A DNA stretch of 55,673 nucleotides from the NCBI GenBank assembly GCA_017431515.1, contig JAFRKV010000002.1, forward strand, positions 1 through 55,673. The letters are read 5' to 3'. The notes under the pieces were generated by a model. That model saw only the letters and a program-made list of their open reading frames with translations, ran no database searches and was not told the DNA's origin. The number at the start of each line of letters is the position of its first letter. Positions within the stretch are counted from its first letter, which is position 1. The DNA comes from Lachnospiraceae bacterium. Its GTDB lineage: Bacteria > Bacillota > Clostridia > Lachnospirales > Lachnospiraceae. Shown here in pieces: positions 7,219 to 12,084 of the stretch. The translations under genes were made by a program, and so were the position numbers.

Positions 7219-7247
7219 TTGAAAAAGTCAGAAAGCGGGTGTATAGT
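7219..7247 (+). promoter_or_regulatory. Promoter for topA
   Basis: TTGAAA (7219-7224), 17 bases, TATAGT (7242-7247). Transcription would begin near 7254, which puts the structured element at 7280-7423 in the topA leader. Confidence 0.65.
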
Positions 7248-7279
7248 GGTTTCGATTTTTGACGCGAAAATGAAATAAT

Positions 7280-7423
7280 GATGGTGGGGGCAAAAGTGCC
7301 ATGCGTGGAACACGCATGTGCACTTTGCGTGGCGAGGCGCTCTGACACGCTAGCGTGTCGAGACGCCTTACCACGCAAAGGTCACAATGTCACTTCGTGA
7401 CATGTGACTTTTGCCCCGACATC
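7280..7423 (+). repeat. Structured palindromic element, copy A (topA leader)
   Basis: The outer stem pairs GGGGCAAAAGT with ACTTTTGCCCC, with GATG/CATC at the ends. Inside are three hairpins. Arm 1 is CATGCGTG-GAA-CACGCATG (7300-7318). Arm 2 starts CTTTGCGTGG (7323-7332), pairs with CCACGCAAAG (7371-7380), and is capped by GACACGC/GCGTGTC. Arm 3 (7381-7408) has GTCACA/TGTGAC and TGTCAC/GTGACA around TTC. The element ends six bases before the AGGAGG of topA. Related copies are at 10568 and 11940. Confidence 0.85.
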
Positions 7424-7443
7424 AAAAACAGGAGGAACACATT

Positions 7444-9528
7444 GTGAAATGTCTTGTCATCGTGGAGTCACCGGCGAAGGTGAAGACGATCAAGAAGTTT
7501 TTGGGGAAAAATTATGAGGTCTGTGCTTCCAACGGACACGTGAGGGATCTTCCCAAGAGCCAGATGGGGATTGATACGGAGCATGACTTTGACCTGAAAT
7601 ATATTACGATTCGCGGAAAAGGGGATATCCTTTCCAAACTCCGGAAGGAAGCCAAGAAGGCGGATCGGATCTATCTTGCAACTGACCCTGACCGCGAGGG
7701 GGAAGCCATCAGCTGGCATCTGGAAAAAGCCCTGAACCTGGCGGACAAGGATGTGCAGCGGATCACCTTTAATGAGATCACCCAGTCTGCAGTGAAGGCT
7801 TCCTTAAAGAAACCGCGCGGGATCGACCAGAATCTTGTGGATGCGCAGCAGGCGAGACGTGTCTTGGACCGCCTCGTGGGCTACAAGATCAGCCCGCTTC
7901 TCTGGGCAAAGGTAAAACGGGGACTTTCCGCGGGGCGCGTGCAGTCTGTCGCCCTTCGGATCATCTGTGACCGGGAGGAGGAGATCAACGCCTTTATTCC
8001 GGAGGAATACTGGACTCTTGAAATCGAATGCAAGGTCAAGGGAGAAAAAAAGCCGCTCATCGCAAAGCTTACCGGCAAAGGGGAGGAAAAGCTTGAGGTA
8101 AAGAATGAGGCGGAGATGAAGCAGGTCATCAAAGCCGTTGAAAAAGCGGAACTGAAGGTGCTGGAGGTGAAAAAGAGCGAGCGCGAGAAGAAGCCGCCGC
8201 TGCCGTTTACGACCAGCACGATGCAGCAGGAAGCGGCAAAACGCCTTAATTTTTCCACGCAAAAGACCATGCGGATCGCGCAGCAGCTTTATGAAGGCGT
8301 GGACATCAAAGGACAGGGCACGATTGGTCTCATTACCTATCTTCGTACGGATTCGATCCGGATCAGCGAGGAGGCGGATGCGGCTGCAAAAGCCTTTATC
8401 CGCGATGCTCATGGGGAAGCGTATCTGATGAAAAACGAAAACGGAAAGCGCCCCGGCGGCAAGATTCAGGATGCCCATGAAGCGATCCGGCCTTCCGATA
8501 TCACGCGGATTCCGTCTTCCGTCAAGGACTCCCTGTCCAGAGACCAGTTCCGTCTGTATCAGCTGATCTGGAGCCGGTTTGCTTCCAGCAGGATGGCACC
8601 GGCGAAGTATGAATCCACCACTGTACGGATCGGGGCGGGAGAATACCGTTTCAGCGCGACAGCGTCAAAACTTTTGTTTGACGGCTTTCTCGCAGTCTAT
8701 TCCGAGGAAGAGGATAAGAAAACCGAAGGCAACATGATGCTCAAAGGCCTCGATCAAAAGAGTGTCCTGACGTTGGAAAATACCGATGCGAAACAGCATT
8801 TCACGCAGCCGGCGCCGCATTTTACGGAGGCTTCGCTGGTGAAGGCGCTGGAGGAGCGCGGCATCGGCCGGCCGTCGACCTATGCCCCCACCATCACCAC
8901 CATTCTGGCGCGGCACTATATCACCAAAGAAAACAAAAACCTCTATGTCACAGAGCTGGGAGAAGCGGTCAACGCCATCATGAAGCAGTCCTTTACGACC
9001 ATCGTGGATGAACGCTTTACGGCAAATATGGAGTCGCTGCTGGATAAGATCGAGGAGGGAGAGATCCAGTGGAAGACTGTGGTCAGAAACTTCTATCCGG
9101 ATCTTAAGGAGGCCGTGGAAAAAGCGGAGAAGGAACTGGAGAAGGTGCAGATCGCGGACGAAGTGACCGACGTGAAATGCGAATTCTGCGGGCGCAACAT
9201 GGTGATCAAATACGGTCCTCATGGCAAATTCCTTGCCTGTCCGGGCTTCCCGGAGTGCCGCAATACCAAACCGTATCTGGAAAAAGTAGGGGTTCCCTGC
9301 CCGAAGTGCGGCAAGGAAGTGGTGCTGCGCAAGACGAAGAAGGGCAGGAAGTATTACGGGTGTGAGGGACATCCGGATTGCGATTTTATGTCCTGGCAGA
9401 AACCGCTCACACAGAAATGCAAAAAATGCGGCGGTTATATGGTTGTCAAAGGCCAGCGTGCGGTCTGCGCGGATGAGAAATGCGGCTATGTGGAGCCGCT
9501 GCCCCAGAAGACAGAAGAAAAAGTTTGA
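7444..9528 (+). CDS. topA: DNA topoisomerase I
   Basis: A 694-residue type IA topoisomerase that relaxes negatively supercoiled DNA. It opens with the Toprim domain (VIVESPAKVKTIKKFLG, then ATDPDREGEAISWHL), followed by the arch domains. The catalytic tyrosine is Tyr299 in LITYLRTDS. Three C-terminal zinc-ribbon units follow: CEFCG...C-x5-C, CPKCG...C-x4-C and CKKCG...C-x4-C. Start is GTG 7444, since AGGAGG lies eight bases upstream and the Toprim strand begins immediately. Its promoter and leader carry a member of the structured element family. Neighbour codY follows after about 70 bases with its own promoter. Confidence 0.97.
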   Translation: MKCLVIVESPAKVKTIKKFLGKNYEVCASNGHVRDLPKSQMGIDTEHDFDLKYITIRGKGDILSKLRKEAKKADRIYLATDPDREGEAISWHLEKALNLADKDVQRITFNEITQSAVKASLKKPRGIDQNLVDAQQARRVLDRLVGYKISPLLWAKVKRGLSAGRVQSVALRIICDREEEINAFIPEEYWTLEIECKVKGEKKPLIAKLTGKGEEKLEVKNEAEMKQVIKAVEKAELKVLEVKKSEREKKPPLPFTTSTMQQEAAKRLNFSTQKTMRIAQQLYEGVDIKGQGTIGLITYLRTDSIRISEEADAAAKAFIRDAHGEAYLMKNENGKRPGGKIQDAHEAIRPSDITRIPSSVKDSLSRDQFRLYQLIWSRFASSRMAPAKYESTTVRIGAGEYRFSATASKLLFDGFLAVYSEEEDKKTEGNMMLKGLDQKSVLTLENTDAKQHFTQPAPHFTEASLVKALEERGIGRPSTYAPTITTILARHYITKENKNLYVTELGEAVNAIMKQSFTTIVDERFTANMESLLDKIEEGEIQWKTVVRNFYPDLKEAVEKAEKELEKVQIADEVTDVKCEFCGRNMVIKYGPHGKFLACPGFPECRNTKPYLEKVGVPCPKCGKEVVLRKTKKGRKYYGCEGHPDCDFMSWQKPLTQKCKKCGGYMVVKGQRAVCADEKCGYVEPLPQKTEEKV

Positions 9529-9546
9529 AAATTTGAAACATTTAGG

Positions 9547-9575
9547 TTGAATTTTTAGAAAAATGGTTGTATAAT
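9547..9575 (+). promoter_or_regulatory. codY promoter
   Basis: TTGAAT (9547-9552), 17 bases, TATAAT (9570-9575). A CodY-box-like sequence fills part of the space between the two boxes. Confidence 0.75.
9550..9564 (+). promoter_or_regulatory. CodY-box-like operator in the codY promoter
   Basis: AATTTTTAGAAAAAT agrees with the CodY consensus AATTTTCWGAAAATT at 13 of 15 positions. It overlaps the end of the -35 box and the spacer, a good place for repression, so codY probably controls itself. Confidence 0.55.
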
Positions 9576-9600
9576 AACAACACTTCACCGGGAGGAAGAA

Positions 9601-10380
9601 ATGAGCGTACAGTTACTCGACAAGACGAGGAAGATTAACAAGCTCTTACACAATAACAACTCGTCCAAGGTCGTATTCAATGACATCTGCGAAGTGCTGA
9701 CAGACGTTCTGGATTCCAACAATTTGGTGATCAGCCGCAAGGGCAAGGTGCTTGGCACCAGCCATTGGAGCGGCAAGCCTACCATCGCGGAGCTGATCCA
9801 CGATCCGGTGGGAGGCTTCATCGACAAAGCGCTGAACGAGCGGTTGCTGGGTATTTTGTCGACGAAGGAGAATGTCAATCTGGAGACCCTCGGATTCGGG
9901 GAAGAGCTTTGTGAGGATCATGCGATCATCACACCCATCGATATCGCAGGGGAGCGCCTCGGTACACTTTTTGTCTATCGTAACGACAAGCAGTTTGACA
10001 TTGACGACATCATCCTCTGCGAATACGGCGCGACGGTAGTGGGACTGGAGATGATGCGTTCCGTCAATGAGGAGAACGCGGAAGAGACCAGAAAGCAGCA
10101 GATCGTGAAATCAGCGATCAACACCTTATCCTTCTCCGAACTGGAAGCCATCATTCACATCTTTGATGAACTGGACGGCATGGAAGGGATTCTCGTGGCC
10201 AGCAAGATCGCAGACCGGGTGGGGATTACGAGATCGGTTATTGTAAACGCGCTGCGGAAGTTTGAAAGCGCCGGAGTCATCGAGTCAAGATCCTCCGGTA
10301 TGAAAGGCACCTACATTAAAGTATTGAACGACGTCGTCTTTGATGAACTGGCGGCGATCAAGAAACAAAACAGGCGATAA
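9601..10380 (+). CDS. codY: GTP-sensing global repressor CodY
   Basis: A 259-residue CodY, the length usual for the family. The N-terminal GAF domain (about 1-155) binds branched-chain amino acids in known members. A linker helix leads to the C-terminal winged helix-turn-helix, seen as ASKIADRVGITRSVIVNALRK and the wing SSGMKGTYIKVLN. CodY represses stationary-phase, nutrient uptake and, in Bacillus, motility genes when amino acids and GTP are plentiful. As in Bacillus, it lies directly before flgB. The operator-like site in its promoter suggests feedback. A terminator separates it from the flagellar genes. Confidence 0.97.
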   Translation: MSVQLLDKTRKINKLLHNNNSSKVVFNDICEVLTDVLDSNNLVISRKGKVLGTSHWSGKPTIAELIHDPVGGFIDKALNERLLGILSTKENVNLETLGFGEELCEDHAIITPIDIAGERLGTLFVYRNDKQFDIDDIILCEYGATVVGLEMMRSVNEENAEETRKQQIVKSAINTLSFSELEAIIHIFDELDGMEGILVASKIADRVGITRSVIVNALRKFESAGVIESRSSGMKGTYIKVLNDVVFDELAAIKKQNRR

Positions 10381-10424
10381 CGCCCTTTGACAAACCAAAG
10401 ATCGAAACGGATTTGCCGGAGCTA

Positions 10425-10459
10425 AACGGATTTGGAGCTTTCCAGATCCGTTTTTTGTT
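10425..10459 (+). terminator. Rho-independent terminator after codY
   Basis: AACGGAT and ATCCGTT form a stem, with inner TGGA/TCCA, followed by TTTTTTGTTTT. It isolates codY from the fla/che unit. Confidence 0.8.
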
Positions 10460-10523
10460 TTCCCCGAAACCATCCATTTTGTAGATGCTTTTTAAAGAAA
10501 CCGCAAGATGGTGTAAAAAATGC

Positions 10524-10551
10524 TTGTCAAAAGTTTAAATTTGAATATAAT
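10524..10551 (+). promoter_or_regulatory. Promoter of the first flagellar unit
   Basis: TTGTCA (10524-10529), 16 bases, TATAAT (10546-10551) is a near-consensus vegetative promoter. The start of transcription would be near 10558, ten bases before the structured element, so every fla transcript from here would begin with that element. Confidence 0.75.
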
Positions 10552-10567
10552 AAATTCTGGATCATGA

Positions 10568-10702
10568 GATGGTCAAAAGTGCCATGCGATGAAATCGCAT
10601 GTGCACTTTGCGCAAGGATCCGGATGGACAAACCAGTTTGTCCACACGGATCTTCGCGCAAAGGTCACAATGTCACTTCGTGACATGTGACTTTTGACCA
10701 TC
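10568..10702 (+). repeat. Structured palindromic element, copy B (flgB leader)
   Basis: The outer stem GATGGTCAAAAGT/ACTTTTGACCATC is perfect over 13 pairs. Arm 1 is CATGCGAT-GAA-ATCGCATG. Arm 2 has the shared base CTTTGCG/CGCAAAG but a wholly different upper part, GGATCCG and TGGACAAAC pairing with GTTTGTCCA and CGGATC. Arm 3 is identical to copies A and C. The element ends 15 bases before the AAGGAG of flgB. Confidence 0.85.
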
Positions 10703-10730
10703 CCACAATCCAGGTGAAAGGAGCCAACCT

Positions 10731-11129
10731 ATGATCAGTTCCAATGCATTTGACTACATCGACGTTCTGGACAAGGCGATGGATGCCAGCTGGGAGCGGG
10801 AGACCATTCTCGCCAACAACCTGGCCAATGTGAACACGCCGAATTACAAACGTCAGGACCTTGACTTCGAGGCCGTGCTGGAGTCCGAACTCGGAAAATC
10901 CAAGTACAAATCTCTGGATGCCAAGATTTCCGATATTCATATGCACCACCTTCAGCCGCGCATCTATACGGATTACGCGAACTTCTCCTATCGTCTTGAC
11001 AAGAACAATGTGGACGTAGACACAGAGAACGTGGAGCTGGCATCGGAGCAGATCCGTTATCGGACTCTGGAAGATGCGATCGACTTTGATTTCAGCGGAC
11101 TGAAGACGGCAATGCAGTCCTCGTCATAA
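10731..11129 (+). CDS. flgB: Flagellar basal-body rod protein FlgB
   Basis: A 132-residue rod protein of the family that builds the proximal flagellar rod between the MS ring and the hook. The N-terminal signature ILANNLANVNTPNYKRQDLDF and the C-terminal amphipathic helix (ELASEQIRYRTLEDAI) form the coiled-coil D0 domain shared by axial proteins. It is exported by the flagellar type III system and has no signal peptide. It is first in the unit, with a promoter at 10524 and a structured leader. flgC follows after 21 bases. Confidence 0.97.
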   Translation: MISSNAFDYIDVLDKAMDASWERETILANNLANVNTPNYKRQDLDFEAVLESELGKSKYKSLDAKISDIHMHHLQPRIYTDYANFSYRLDKNNVDVDTENVELASEQIRYRTLEDAIDFDFSGLKTAMQSSS

Positions 11130-11150
11130 GCATAGAAAGGAGCTTCTCTC

Positions 11151-11594
11151 ATGGGACTTTTTCAATCATTTGATATCAGCGCAAGCGGCATGACGGCAGA
11201 GCGGTTCCGGATCGACGTGATCGCGGAAAACGTTGCCAATGTGAATACAACCAGAACGGAGTCCGGGGAGCCATACCGGCGCAAGATCGTTACCTTTGCG
11301 GAGAAGAAGGTCACACCCTTCACGGACGTGCTGGCGCGCTCCAGACAGGCGTATCTCGGAAACGGTGTCAAGGTTTCCCATGTTACCGAGGATGAGGAAA
11401 ACGATTTTGTGATGGAGTATGACCCGTCCCATCCGGACGCGGATGAGAACGGCTATGTTTCTTATCCGAACGTCAATATCGTGACGGAAATGACGAACTT
11501 AATCGATGCGAGCCGCGGGTACGAAGCGAATACGACGGCATTTGAAGCCGCAAAGTCGCTGGCGACCACGGGACTCTCCATCGGGAAAGGATGA
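11151..11594 (+). CDS. flgC: Flagellar basal-body rod protein FlgC
   Basis: A 147-residue proximal rod subunit. The N-terminus (FDISASGMTAERFRIDVIAENVANVNT) is the rod/hook family signature. The C-terminus (VTEMTNLIDASRGYEANTTAFEAAKS) is the matching helix. The middle part carries the YVSYPNVNIV motif typical of FlgC. AAGGAG precedes the ATG. It is packed tightly between flgB and fliE, as in Bacillus. Confidence 0.97.
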   Translation: MGLFQSFDISASGMTAERFRIDVIAENVANVNTTRTESGEPYRRKIVTFAEKKVTPFTDVLARSRQAYLGNGVKVSHVTEDEENDFVMEYDPSHPDADENGYVSYPNVNIVTEMTNLIDASRGYEANTTAFEAAKSLATTGLSIGKG

Positions 11595-11597
11595 TAA

Positions 11598-11909
11598 ATG
11601 ACAGCGATCACTGAACTGACCAATGTTTCGTCAAATGTCATTCAAAAAACCGCGGACGACTGGAAGGTCAAAAAAGACGAGGATACCTTCGACTCCGCAT
11701 TAAACGGTGCGATCAAAATGCTGAACGAGACCAACGGTCTTTGGAACAAGGTCTCGGAGCAGGAGGTGCGTTTTGAATTGGGGGAAGCAATCAATACGCA
11801 TGACCTTCAGATCGCCCAGGAAAAAGCGAACGTGGCACTGCAGTACACGATCGCGGTGCGGGATAAGGTGTTGTCCGCATACAAAGAGTTGATGAATATG
11901 CAGGTGTGA
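11598..11909 (+). CDS. fliE: Flagellar hook-basal body protein FliE
   Basis: A 103-residue FliE, the adapter that joins the FliF ring to the rod and is the first substrate of the export gate. The C-terminal half has the family pattern: MLNETNGLWNKVSEQEVRFELGEAINTHDLQIAQEKANVALQYTIAVRDKVLSAYKELMNMQV, of which the LQIAQEKANVAL and the final MNMQV are the most conserved. It begins three bases after flgC. A 205-base gap holding copy C of the structured element separates it from fliF. Confidence 0.94.
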   Translation: MTAITELTNVSSNVIQKTADDWKVKKDEDTFDSALNGAIKMLNETNGLWNKVSEQEVRFELGEAINTHDLQIAQEKANVALQYTIAVRDKVLSAYKELMNMQV

Positions 11910-11939
11910 GGGTAGTGCGAGCGGCACATGCTATTAGAT

Positions 11940-12084
11940 GATGCTGAGGTCAAAAGTGCCATGCGATGAAATCGCATGTGCACTTTGCGTGGCGAGGCGT
12001 TCTGACACGCTAGCGTGTCGAGACGCCTTACCACGCAAAGGTCACAATGTCACTTCGTGACATGTGACTTTTGACATCAACATC
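11940..12084 (+). repeat. Structured palindromic element, copy C (between fliE and fliF)
   Basis: The outer stem pairs 11940-11957 with 12067-12084, GGTCAAAAGT/ACTTTTGACat continuing into GATG/CATC. Arm 1 equals copy B (CATGCGAT-GAA-ATCGCATG). Arm 2 equals copy A except for one base. Arm 3 is the same in all three. So C looks like a mosaic of A and B. It lies inside the operon and ends about 20 bases before the fliF ribosome binding site. Confidence 0.85.

Follow-up and report, generated by a model that had tools for sequence, protein, structure and literature searches.

The window studied here, an entire contig of 55,673 nucleotides (JAFRKV010000002.1, assembly GCA_017431515.1) from the 2.35-Mb, 82% complete genome of a Lachnospiraceae bacterium (G000 below), carries three copies of a palindromic element near topA, flgB and fliF. 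The element is non-coding, is about 145 bp long and occurs in many copies. It is probably a transposon-derived family of miniature inverted-repeat transposable elements (MITEs), whose body can fold as a four-way cross on either strand and whose pairing would be maintained mostly through DNA-level processes rather than through selection on RNA. The initial annotation of the window had described the three palindromes and had left the choice between RNA and mobile DNA open. Terminal inverted repeats, target duplications, patchy occurrence, empty sites, inversions and the lack of wobble bias now favour mobile DNA.

The three copies lie where the initial annotation had placed them, and all parts that had been described are present: an outer stem with CAAAAG/CTTTTG, a first hairpin with a GAA loop, a variable central arm and an identical third hairpin with a TTC loop. 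Together they form a four-way junction at which nearly every base is paired, and the outer stem continues past CAAAAGT into sequence particular to each copy. The reverse complement of hairpin 3 has the GAA loop, the bulge and the foot of hairpin 1, so that the element looks alike from both sides.

Terminal repeats and patchy distribution

The ends of the element were found in two Lachnospiraceae genomes of other genera, G217 and G281. Copies in G217 have 19-bp terminal inverted repeats, TTTGAGTTTCCCCATTTTT and its complement, and 24 of 31 have an end-to-end length of 190-198 bp. Direct repeats of 6-12 nt flank 23 of the 31 fetched copies as against 68 of 930 cross-paired controls, the criterion being a direct repeat of 6 nt or more beside the terminal repeats, with 3-nt slack; L218, a copy wrongly placed by the end finder, is counted as a miss. 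The 19-mer end itself, with up to 3 mismatches, occurs 126 times, and a reversed-pattern control 3 times. The G281 copies end in GATGTTGGGG, both end motifs being present in 5 of 7 tested, and their target duplications are about 7 bp long: 4 of 5 match at 6-7 of 7 flanking bases, compared with 4 of 132 cross pairs in the control. The terminal repeats and target duplications of G217 and G281 thus mark the family as probable MITEs. A related end, GATGTTGAGG, is seen in better-kept copies of G000, for example at G000:C51:167341, and short derivatives with such ends and one hairpin are also present. At L027:2666-2704, L018:1758-1776, L279:2318-2377 and L281:2146, similar ends enclose at most one hairpin, as solo or mini forms.

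BLAST gave 56 matches over 19 contigs in G000, a lower bound since 40 of 70 first-look candidates were scored, and 41 in RUG12461 (G001), an uncultured Lachnospiraceae metagenome-assembled genome of a sister species in the same genus. Merging of strands left 42 and 30 pieces, and joining of split copies at least about 40 and about 29 elements, respectively; a further copy, L283, was found later, beyond the BLAST count. Two other genomes of the genus, G002 and G003, had no BLAST match. As the initial annotation had proposed, a covariance model was built and run on the genome and its relatives, and a dispersed multi-copy family was recovered. The model of 60 copies matched 7 of 397 genomes of the bacterial family at E <= 0.001. 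A broader model, R3, which lacks the hairpin-3 pairs because of an alignment register problem, matched 11 of the 397 and, in a draw from the class, 1 of 391, which was the window's own genome. Searches over more than 40 genomes used strict filters, by which distant relatives may be missed. Strong matches lie in G000, G001, G281, G217, G059 and G398; the weak ones in G401, G049, G385, G294, G249 and G167 are not claimed as members, and a model (R2) that had lost hairpin 1, as its rows combined two orientations, was not used. Collections of plasmids, phages and viral contigs gave no match, and a loose hairpin pattern returned 4 matches in 2 of 10 relatives, all of them unrelated. A patchy multi-copy pattern, in which each genome has its own similar copies, is the pattern of mobile elements.

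The orthologous sites at topA and fliF are empty in RUG12461; that species therefore does without these two copies, and the case for a function of the topA and fliF copies is weakened. The link to the neighbouring genes, which had been pointed out together with the palindromes, looks incidental with G000 matches on 19 contigs.

A repeat of the repetitive extragenic palindromic (REP) type, spread by a Y1 transposase (REP-associated tyrosine transposase, RAYT), is an improbable source of the family. The element would then consist of two inverted bulged hairpin units, with one 5' GAA hairpin on each strand, and hairpin 1 does share its loop, bulge and foot with the reverse complement of hairpin 3. 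Solo hairpins exist, and one Y1_Tnp (PF01797) gene, a 155-aa open reading frame (ORF), lies in G000 at C61:68923-69288 (L055). However, no element was seen in the 3.4-kb locus of this gene, i.e., within about 1.5 kb of it, in a genome that is 82% complete. Elements moved by Y1 transposases should be without target duplications, whereas the relatives have terminal inverted repeats with such duplications. The hairpin foot is CAAAAG, with no consistent GTAG/CGTC tag by eye in the 60-row alignment. A location mainly 3' of coding regions, as given for REPs in the part of PMC3733652 consulted, is a further point of agreement with this origin.

Stem pairing, strand and orientation

The consensus over 60 full-length copies, from which L008 and L054 were omitted as they had no clean end anchor, contains 57 pairs, 32 of them with at least one two-sided change. 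Two-sided changes fill 412 cells as against 115.8 in shuffles, none of 500 reaching 412, and shifting the partners by 1-3 columns gives no more than 74. Pairing extends into the copy-specific outer stems: at outer positions 4-7, 72-97% of the 60 copies pair, compared with 30-43% in cross-paired flanks. At 14 sites shared by G000 and G001, 106/126 and 104/126 of the first nine outer positions pair within each genome, and 74/126 and 73/126 when the flanks of the two genomes are mixed. At the flgB site, one outer-stem pair has changed from G-C to A-T, and in the orthologue of copy 2 (L077) the element is inverted and its outer stem has co-varied. Insertion into a pre-existing hairpin was rejected as the source of the outer stems, as the empty topA and fliF sites of RUG12461 have no such hairpin by eye; at fliF, 20-30 nt past the ends also differ, and the insertion point there is imprecise.

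Standard RNA-discovery logic would call this repeat a new structured RNA. The covariation is there, yet DNA-level processes also give covariation, and strong covariation need not mean RNA. A structured cis-regulatory or 3'-untranslated-region RNA, whose four-way junction in the transcript would control stability, termination or translation of the neighbouring mRNA and be under selection as RNA, is unlikely, though more probable than the REP origin. It would agree with a very stable fold (-85.4 and -82.2 kcal/mol for two of the three window copies, z -10.8 and -11.1, with 0 of 200 shuffles as stable in each case) and with covariation beyond the shuffled and slid controls. A promoter-like site (7219-7247 and 10524-10551, respectively) precedes copies 1 and 2, which are followed by the start of topA or flgB, and hairpin 3 of the three copies looks terminator-like in a loose scan that gave 10 in total, close to the shuffled mean of 6.6.

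Placement among genes bears on this RNA in both directions. Genes were called with our own simple codon-usage caller; none of 75 places is inside a called gene, which agrees with the initial annotation that no gene explains the elements, and in 7 of the 75 the match runs over the end of a called gene by 6-22 nt. Both neighbours were called for 58 of 62 copies, four copies being without a called neighbour on one side. Co-directional genes surround 42 of the 58, and for 32 of these 42 the upstream stop codon is no more than 30 nt away, where 17.1 are expected from uniform placement in the same gaps. By relative position in these gaps, the bias to the stop codon is mild (mean 0.42; Kolmogorov-Smirnov p = 0.018). 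In the window, copies 1, 2 and 3 are 277, 191 and 36 nt from the upstream gene, only copy 3 being near a stop codon. Against an RNA, the neighbouring genes are convergent for 11 of the 58 copies and divergent for 5, and the orthologous topA and fliF leaders are without copies.

In an RNA under selection, G-U pairs should exceed A-C pairs in the transcribed strand, and this excess is not seen. Among non-Watson-Crick pairs of 44 copies with assigned direction there are 58 G-U and 47 A-C (p = 0.33), whereas 16 tRNA acceptor stems from fetched loci, taken as control, have 11 G-U and 1 A-C (Fisher p = 0.015). The opposite strand of the element also scores with the model, at 99-108 as against 142-158 bits, and no Rfam family matches at its gathering score. 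Moreover, the element is inverted at 10 of the 14 sites shared by G000 and G001 (one of the four same-orientation sites rests on one flank only), by which sense and antisense forms would have been exchanged. The lack of wobble bias, together with the inversions, argues against a strand-specific RNA.

Orientation that differs at most shared sites would also be expected from an inverton, in which a site-specific recombinase flips the element at its outer inverted repeats in a programmed manner. This is the least probable of the explanations weighed here. The outer repeats are copy-specific, so there is no single recombinase site, and in 8 of the 9 inverted pairs tested some other copy is closer than the orthologue, an outcome not expected from pure flipping; in one of these eight, the orthologue is still third-ranked, at 96.7% identity. 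Of all 13 pairs whose cores were compared, the pair L005/L054 being left out, 4 have the orthologue as best match: 3 of 4 in same orientation and 1 of 9 inverted. Three hairpin-1 types and three central-arm types occur in 8 of 9 combinations among the 48 of 60 copies that were typed, which suggests reassortment among copies.

In the MITE reading that we favour, a trans-acting transposase would recognise the ends, GATGTTGRGG beside CAAAAG in G000 and G281 and a different end in G217, and would insert the element with a short target duplication. During replication, template switching between the inverted arms could then correct one arm from the other and so produce compensatory changes, and it could also invert the interior of the element. 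Ectopic conversion between copies may swap cores and arms; as the element is pseudo-palindromic, either orientation would allow it. The two processes together would account for stem pairing, inversions and reassorted cores. Template switching is described as homogenising the arms of inverted repeats and inverting spacers in the consulted part of PMC8604942, and as making compensatory changes in that of PMC8794818.

Several points weigh against this reading. Target duplications in G000 and G001 are not above chance: 4 of 60 copies, and 6.1% of cross pairs, have 70-nt flanks with a direct repeat of 8 nt or longer. Seven copies of these two genomes match at 1-4 of 7 flanking bases, with a control mean of 2.98, although two of the seven, L032 and L281, would match by eye if shifted by one base; most G000 and G001 copies look old. 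Neither a parent transposase nor an autonomous element, with a transposase gene between a pair of ends, was found among the 100 of 126 G217 places listed or, for G281, in about 400 contigs, and a single transposase does not explain how one cloverleaf comes to have different terminal repeats in G217 and G281. As the core comparison gives a mixed picture, replacement by other copies has to be assumed in addition. The wobble comparison has modest power and depends on gene calls of our own and on a small set of tRNA stems as control. Template switching and conversion are deduced from two species, not observed, and the spacer inversions reported in the consulted part of PMC8604942 are substitutions of 2-5 bp in yeast, against about 120 bp here.

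A considerably less likely, but conceivable, alternative is that the four-way cross is a functional DNA part, namely a cis-acting cruciform that different Lachnospiraceae transposition systems captured between different terminal repeats. The cross would be needed for movement or for repeated flipping in place, and would be kept by selection on folded DNA and not on RNA. Two sister species with at least 14 shared sites offer a natural multi-copy system for measuring how palindromes in bacteria invert and how their arms are corrected, and a repeat family is here described for a major bacterial family of gut and rumen.

The three window copies and other repeats

Repeat comparison within the window returned one 136-nt family with starts at 7278, 10561 and 11938, in which copy 2 is 76% and copy 3 is 94% identical to copy 1. 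The covariance model, to which these same copies contributed, scores the full elements at 149-158 bits on the plus strand and 99-108 bits on the opposite strand, all three being scored on both. Copy 1 (7280..7424, +, 152.1 bits) is a full four-armed element in the topA leader with ends GATGGTGGGG / CCCCGACATC. Copy 2 (10563..10707, +, 149.3 bits) lies 5' of flgB, and its outer stem reaches to about 10557-10713. Copy 3 (11940..12084, +, 158.1 bits) occupies the gap between fliE and fliF. Its parts, all on the plus strand and placed by the consensus structure of the 60-row alignment, are the left end and outer stem, GATGCTGAGGTC plus AAAAG (11940..11956); hairpin 1, with the GAA loop and a bulged T on the 3' side (11957..11982); the variable central arm with a palindromic GCTAGC tip (11983..12040); hairpin 3 with the TTC loop (12042..12067); and the right end and outer stem, CTTTT plus GACATCAACATC (12068..12084). 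The end motif of copy 3, GATGTTGRGGKC, is also present in G281, where it is flanked by duplications of about 7 bp; copy 3 itself has no target duplication (2 of 7 flanking bases match). Among the neighbouring genes, annotated by Pfam within the window only, topA, codY, fliE and fliF are supported, and the flgB ORF matches only a general flagellar rod-protein domain (E 7e-6).

That the palindromes belong to no named RNA family, as the initial annotation had it, was borne out by Rfam, with no match to the elements at gathering score in the window or in 8 loci including relatives. A permissive search with copies 2 and 3 gave 11 and 12 matches, nearly all to microRNA precursors and every one far below gathering, and these were set aside as chance. 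No description of the family was found among the matches listed for literature on palindromic, MITE, REP or cruciform repeats in Lachnospiraceae, Butyrivibrio and Roseburia.

Other repeats and RNAs were met on the way. In three elements, at G000:C15:125391-125459 (L165), G000:C15:101912-101980 (L169) and G001:C10:96800-96861 (L167), the central-arm tip contains another hairpin repeat (TCTACGCTCCGCTCCGGTC ... GTCCACTGGAC). This second repeat also stands alone in G000, G002 and G003 (L166, L168, L171, L173, L174 and L177), and Rfam had no match over it in 8 loci. Adjacent multi-arm palindromes that resemble the central arm and are otherwise different occur at G401:C9:242017-242270 (L186, L198), in a 6.9-Mb genome of the family. 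The window ends in a TwoAYGGAY RNA (RF01731; 55528-55673, minus strand, 65.1 bits) that is cut by the contig end.

Likeness to known systems

The bacterial MITEs QMITE1/2 and Chunjie, as presented in the consulted part of PMC10969869, are alike in being shorter than 500 bp and intergenic, with terminal inverted repeats and with direct repeats in younger copies. Their transcripts form stable stem-loops, they have truncated REP-like derivatives, and QMITE2 lies mainly in 3' untranslated regions. Unlike those MITEs, so far as that part describes them, the present family keeps a four-way cross through two-sided changes, has outer stems that are copy-specific but paired, and stands in opposite orientation at most of 14 orthologous sites. 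Its alignable body is bounded by different terminal repeats in G217 and G281, and its parent insertion sequence was not found. REPs, their paired form (REPIN) and RAYTs share with it palindromic units that often neighbour one another in opposite orientation and lie mainly 3' of coding regions, between co-directional or convergent genes, according to the same part of PMC3733652 as above. Compared with what is given there, the present element is larger and has no consistent GTAG/CGTC tag, its relatives' terminal repeats come with duplications, and no linked RAYT was seen. Template-switch mutation at quasipalindromes, in the parts of PMC8604942 and PMC8794818 consulted, concerns short repeats in yeast genes and RNA genes, whereas here we infer the mechanism for a multi-copy bacterial repeat of about 145 bp; the likeness lies in homogenisation of the arms combined with inversion of the spacer.

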